Positions 41,802-42,381 of a stretch of 64,000 nt of DNA are shown piece after piece (positions within the stretch are counted from its first letter, which is position 1; every line of letters begins with the position of its first letter). Source of the stretch: Castor canadensis (taxonomy: Eukaryota > Chordata > Mammalia > Rodentia > Castoridae); assembly GCF_047511655.1 (NCBI RefSeq), contig NC_133398.1:39499638-39563637 (forward strand). The letters run 5' to 3'. The translations under genes were made by a program, and so were the position numbers. The notes under the pieces are model-generated. The model saw only the letters and a program-made list of their open reading frames with translations. It was not told where the DNA came from and did no database searches.

Positions 41802-42381
41802 CTGGCGGAGCGCGGTGGCGCGCGAAGGCCGCGAGGGGACCGGGAGCGGCTGGGTCCCCGGCGGCGCGCACCTCGGCTCAGCCGGGAGCTGCGCCAGTCG
41901 GAGCGCCCAGCCGAGCGCGGCCCGCCTCCCTCTCAGCGTTCATCTCTGCGGAGTACAGCCAGCGGATATGACCGATCCACCAGAGGCGCCGCCACCGGCG
42001 CTTGCAAGCCGCGGGTGAAGAAGAAAGTCCGTCCCCGCTCGACCCGGAGCGAGAAGGTGACCCAGCGCAAGGAGGCGACTCGGCACAAGGAGGTGACCGA
42101 GGCCGAGGAAGTGACCCGGCGCAAGGAGGTGACCAAAGCCGAGGAGGTGACCAAGGCCAAGGAGGTGACCAAGGCCAAGGAGGTGATCGAGGCCGAGGAG
42201 GCGACCCGGGACAAGGACGTGACCAGGGCGGAGGAGGTGGCTTGGGCCGAGGAGGTGACCCAGACCGAGGAGGAGACCCAGACCGAGCTGGTGACCCAGA
42301 TCGAGGAGGTGACCCAGACGGAGGAGGTGATCCAGGCCGAGGAAATGGCGGCAGCCGGGCTCAGCGTGACCGTCACCCACA
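41802..42381 (+). CDS. BAG1: BAG1 coding exon 1 (CUG start, hexapeptide repeats)
   Basis: Encodes residues 1-193 of BAG-1L, including the basic region, the acidic hexad array and the start of the UBL (LSVTVTH). The donor GTGAGC follows CACCCACA. The CTG has G at -3 and +4. Confidence 0.93.

Follow-up and report, generated by a model that had tools for sequence, protein, structure and literature searches.

The plus strand of the window (the whole stretch of DNA analyzed here, 64,000 nucleotides long) carries the BAG1 gene. Its exons were located by tblastn with human BAG-1L, a query whose last 230 residues are identical to PDB chain 9heu, and the exon borders were placed manually at GT and AG sites. 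The coding parts are as follows:

41802..42381, plus strand: coding part of exon 1, beginning at the long-form CTG and ending at the splice donor
43849..43977, plus strand: exon 2
45407..45489, plus strand: exon 3
47427..47540, plus strand: exon 4
48667..48774, plus strand: exon 5
49716..49778, plus strand: exon 6
50325..50414, plus strand: coding part of exon 7, including the stop codon

These seven exons, the number also given for human BAG1 (PMC2672009), are separated by GT-AG introns, and the spliced frame is open over 388 codons from 41802 to 50414. After splicing, the products measure 388 aa from CTG 41802, 317 aa from GTG 42015 and 207 aa from ATG 42345, so that the lengths of 388 aa and 207 aa given for the long and the short form in the initial annotation of this locus are both right. 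The protein contains a BAG domain (Pfam PF02179, 30.7 bits against a cut-off of 23.4) and a ubiquitin-like domain (UBL; PF00240, 28.9 bits against a cut-off of 25.4). The UBL is identical neither to that of human BAG-1S nor to that of PDB chain 2lwp, which we take to be mouse BAG1. We rejected the possibility of a pseudogene because of the seven exons, the GT-AG introns and the open frame; BAG1 in the window looks like an intact, ordinary rodent gene. Head to head with it, on the minus strand, lies CHMP5 (28366-41382), found as eight tblastn pieces covering residues 1-219 of the human CHMP5 query. The CHMP5 Met at 41382 and the BAG1 CTG are some 420 bp apart, and the two genes likely share a two-way promoter.

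The predicted start of the long form and the codon that closes the frame upstream of it are:

41802..41804, plus strand: CTG in the BAG1 frame, start of BAG-1L
41754..41756, plus strand: TAG in the BAG1 frame upstream of the CTG, from frame reading

The CTG that was first said to open the BAG frame, and the in-frame TAG upstream of it, were both read at these positions. The CTG lies in the context GCGGGC CTG GC, and its wider surroundings, GGGCCTGG, equal the human GGGCCUGG given in PMC9082881, a source that rates the BAG1 CUG context as suboptimal. According to PMC6821271, all four human in-frame starts are suboptimal, and the human leader has 87 nt ahead of the CUG. In the N-terminal extension 53 of 71 residues equal those of human BAG-1L, compared to 4/71 and 10/71 in the two alternative frames. 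By its sequence, the CTG-started extension is genuine BAG-1L sequence, and the gene has a putative CUG start of the long form with a conserved extension. The CUG would be unneeded if an unseen upstream exon were spliced into exon 1 past TAG 41754, bringing an in-frame AUG with it. For such an exon, the AG at 41768, preceded by nine pyrimidines in 15 bases, could serve as the splice acceptor; however, the pyrimidine tract ahead of it is weak, CHMP5 begins head to head with BAG1 at 41382, and initiation at a CUG is what has been described in human and mouse (PMC2672009). We therefore regard an upstream exon of this kind as very improbable. As for the human leader G-quadruplex, a simple pattern (four runs of at least two G, loops of 1-7) has no match in 41691-41802, the place expected for the human element from its distances, and a three-G pattern with loops of up to 9 yields overlapping G-quadruplex candidates that start at 41674, 41678 and 41679.

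Two leader elements had escaped the initial annotation, and the second of them runs into the position of the human BAG-1M start (hereafter the M slot):

41780..42149, plus strand: match to Rfam family RF00222 (IRES_Bag1), model positions 1-370 of 370, 326.5 bits, no gaps
41968..42018, plus strand: out-of-frame uORF of 16 codons, its TGA sharing bases with the M-slot GTG
42015..42017, plus strand: GTG facing the human BAG-1M AUG, assigned by frame position, tblastn and the Rfam alignment

The score of the IRES_Bag1 match far exceeds the gathering score of 37, and we regard the region as a candidate IRES on the strength of this sequence and structure model. In human BAG1 the out-of-frame uORF runs from an AUG at 254 to a UGA at 302; M starts at AUG 301 and the p29 form at AUG 502 (PMC6821271). 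Measured from the CUG, the uORF ATG follows after 166 nt, the M slot after 213 nt and the uORF TGA after 214 nt, identically in human and in the window. The uORF ATG 41968 has G at -3 and A at +4, and its stop occupies 42016-42018. The human uORF is described as repressive, with reinitiation after it unproven (PMC6821271). Judged by sequence, both leader elements are kept, the IRES_Bag1 match over its full length and the 16-codon uORF at the human spacing. We also considered a special fold over 41802-42380 and dropped it, as the predicted fold is not more stable than those of shuffled sequences (z -0.80; 22 of 100 shuffles as good).

In the M slot, the codon aligned with the human BAG-1M AUG was initially given as GTG 42015, and it is read as such at that position (context CCGCGG GTG AA). 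An AUG-started M form is thus not possible in the window BAG1, as in mouse, whose mRNA likewise has GUG at the BAG-1M AUG position and, as described in PMC2672009, no direct counterpart of human BAG-1M. Since GUG is a near-cognate start, codon 42015 might still initiate at a low level and give a p46-like form of 317 aa, making three forms in all. The sequence around it is conserved in the RF00222 alignment, and in human the context of the M start is stronger than that of the L start (PMC6821271). However, GTG 42015 is flanked by C at -3 and A at +4 and overlaps the uORF stop, and the mouse precedent, in the account of PMC2672009, speaks against a product from a GUG in this slot; residual initiation here is unlikely in our estimate. 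The initial annotation described both classical AUG starts, M and S, as lost. For M, the word is unsupported because mouse has GUG in this slot (PMC2672009) and the RF00222 consensus carries a lower-case g there (model position 236 by counting). As far as these sequences indicate, it may be the human M AUG that is derived, i.e. a gain.

The position of the human BAG-1S start (the S slot) falls within a tandem repeat:

42050..42343, plus strand: 18-bp tandem repeat encoding the acidic hexarepeat, 16.3 copies, 77% matches

Approached from the 5' side, the Rfam alignment pairs the human S AUG, represented by the aUG that ends RF00222 at model positions 368-370, with GTG 42147, from which the next ATG lies 198 nt downstream. 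Counted back from the UBL along the human BAG-1S alignment, the partner is GAG 42273, a position extrapolated three residues past the aligned part. The assignment is ambiguous because the slot lies within the repeat, and neither candidate is an ATG, in agreement with the first description of the locus, in which no ATG corresponded to the human BAG-1S start. A scan between the uORF stop and 42345 found no ATG in any frame (42019-42344), and hence no AUG start of the human S type. This absence is unremarkable because the 326-nt stretch is so poor in T (23 T): in 5000 first-order Markov simulations, 1.97 ATGs were expected on average and 14% of the sequences had none. The AUG-free stretch was accordingly dropped as a feature of its own. 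The opposite strand of exon 1 contains open frames of 159 codons (41933-42412) and 203 codons (41940-42551), which probably reflect the scarcity of stops in the 18-bp repeat.

A true loss of ancestral AUG starts in this lineage, M and S both, would account for the presence of both in human (PMC2672009; PMC6821271) and of neither in the window, as well as for the terminal aUG of the RF00222 consensus facing GTG 42147. On the other hand, the mouse GUG (PMC2672009) and the Rfam consensus letter in the M slot leave room for a gain in human, and the alignment of the S slot inside the repeat is uncertain. We consider loss of both starts doubtful, although less so than residual initiation at the GUG. 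Moreover, one downstream AUG has been kept:

42345..42347, plus strand: first ATG in the BAG1 frame; it aligns with the human p29 start and would give a product of 207 aa

As initially noted, this is the first in-frame AUG, it adjoins the UBL, and the codon was read there. When aligned to human BAG-1S, it pairs with the Met of human EEM-AAAGL, and its context is GAGGAA ATG GC, with G at -3 and G at +4. In human, a fourth BAG1 start gives rise to the 207-residue p29 form (PMC2672009; PMC6821271). We say that one AUG is kept because the start of the 207-aa form corresponds to this known human AUG; by alignment, ATG 42345 is a conserved start, the counterpart of the human p29 AUG, and no novelty. 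The unusual feature is that 42345 is the sole in-frame AUG remaining in exon 1. Human p29 is described as less abundant and its detection as inconsistent (PMC2672009; PMC6821271), and for this reason AUG 42345 could be weak in the window BAG1 too. Mutation of the S AUG in a human reporter moved initiation to the next start, which stood for p29 (PMC6821271).

Taken together, we propose two proteins as the most likely output of the BAG1 mRNA, a long one of 388 aa initiated at CUG 41802 and a short one of 207 aa initiated at AUG 42345, and we would put the probability of this reading at roughly 0.75. Some ribosomes would start at CUG 41802 and produce the long form. Others would pass the CUG, meet the AUG of the conserved 16-codon uORF, stop at 42016-42018, and perhaps reinitiate; alternatively, ribosomes could enter through the conserved IRES region, if it is active. 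After the uORF or IRES entry, the next AUG in any frame would be 42345, yielding the 207-aa form. The observed basis of this scheme comprises the codons, their spacing, the intact frame and the match to the IRES family, from which we infer the use of each start, leaky scanning, reinitiation and IRES activity. The initial annotation had likewise proposed a CUG long form and a 207-aa form with no AUG-started p46. As an inference this fits the sequence; its framing as a loss is not supported, given the mouse GUG and the Rfam consensus in the M slot and the kept p29 AUG. That interpretation is therefore partly supported: its outline is correct, most of it was known from mouse, and the framing as loss goes too far.

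The start arrangement is indeed largely known already and much like that of mouse, and the window BAG1 adds one species. Mouse had initially been said to make only a long and a short form, and the review describes just these, a CUG long form and a short form of 219 residues (PMC2672009). Mouse Bag1 shares with the window gene the GUG in the M slot, the CUG long form and a single short form from an internal AUG, and differs in the length of the latter, 219 residues compared to 207 (PMC2672009). From this difference, the mouse short form would start twelve residues upstream, where the window has GTG (codon 42309). In chain 2lwp, a further Met precedes the shared UBL-adjacent Met by six residues, and the matching window codon, 42327, is also GTG. 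Human BAG1 agrees with the window gene in the CUG and its context, the spacing of the uORF, the IRES family, the p29 start (183 of the 207 residues that follow from it are identical) and the seven exons, but possesses the M and S AUGs, both absent from the window. The RF00222 match is full-length, yet the model ends in aUG where the window has GTG. From the M slot to the p29 AUG there are 67 codons in human and 110 in the window, i.e. 43 more, in a segment that holds the hexarepeat; accordingly, the distance between the CUG and the p29 AUG is 414 nt in human and 543 nt in the window. Ten copies of the repeat are reported for human L and M (PMC8384158), compared to the 16.3 18-bp copies found here. 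Thus, the window gene departs from known BAG1 in small ways: no AUG in the hexarepeat, a longer repeat tract, and the start of the short form.

Thirteen of the 17 repeat slots ahead of 42345 are GTG, a single transition away from ATG. It is tempting, though decidedly tentative, to regard the 18-bp hexarepeat as a store from which start codons can arise. Through point mutations and the gain of repeats, the short isoform could acquire different N-termini in different species, against a constant background of CUG, uORF and IRES region; we suggest this because so many slots are GTG and because the human S and mouse short forms start at different distances from the UBL-adjacent Met. Our search of titles and abstract openings in the PMC literature found no paper comparing the start codons of BAG1 among mammals. 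Together with mouse, the window BAG1 suggests that mammals do not generally have an AUG-started M form, and that a conserved uORF and IRES region precede a variable set of AUGs. BAG1 could therefore offer a natural test of how ribosomes choose their start where the S AUG is absent.

Elsewhere in the window, we compared the DNA with consensus sequences of eleven SINE families and found 29 pieces of ID, 20 of B1, 10 of Alu and 7 of MIR, with no match at E 1e-4 to the B2, carnivore, bat, ruminant, pig, rabbit and horse SINEs. B1 and Alu have a common origin. We take the window to be rodent DNA. Four Rfam tRNA matches (49388-49460, 60007-60080 and 34288-34358 on the plus strand, 3703-3775 on the minus strand) score 30.1-31.8 bits against a threshold of 29; because they barely exceed it and lie within dispersed repeat families, they are probably tRNA-derived SINEs and not tRNA genes. 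Among the repeats listed, the least diverged long pair consists of two 300-nt copies, 6528-6827 and 23431-23730, which are 94% identical.
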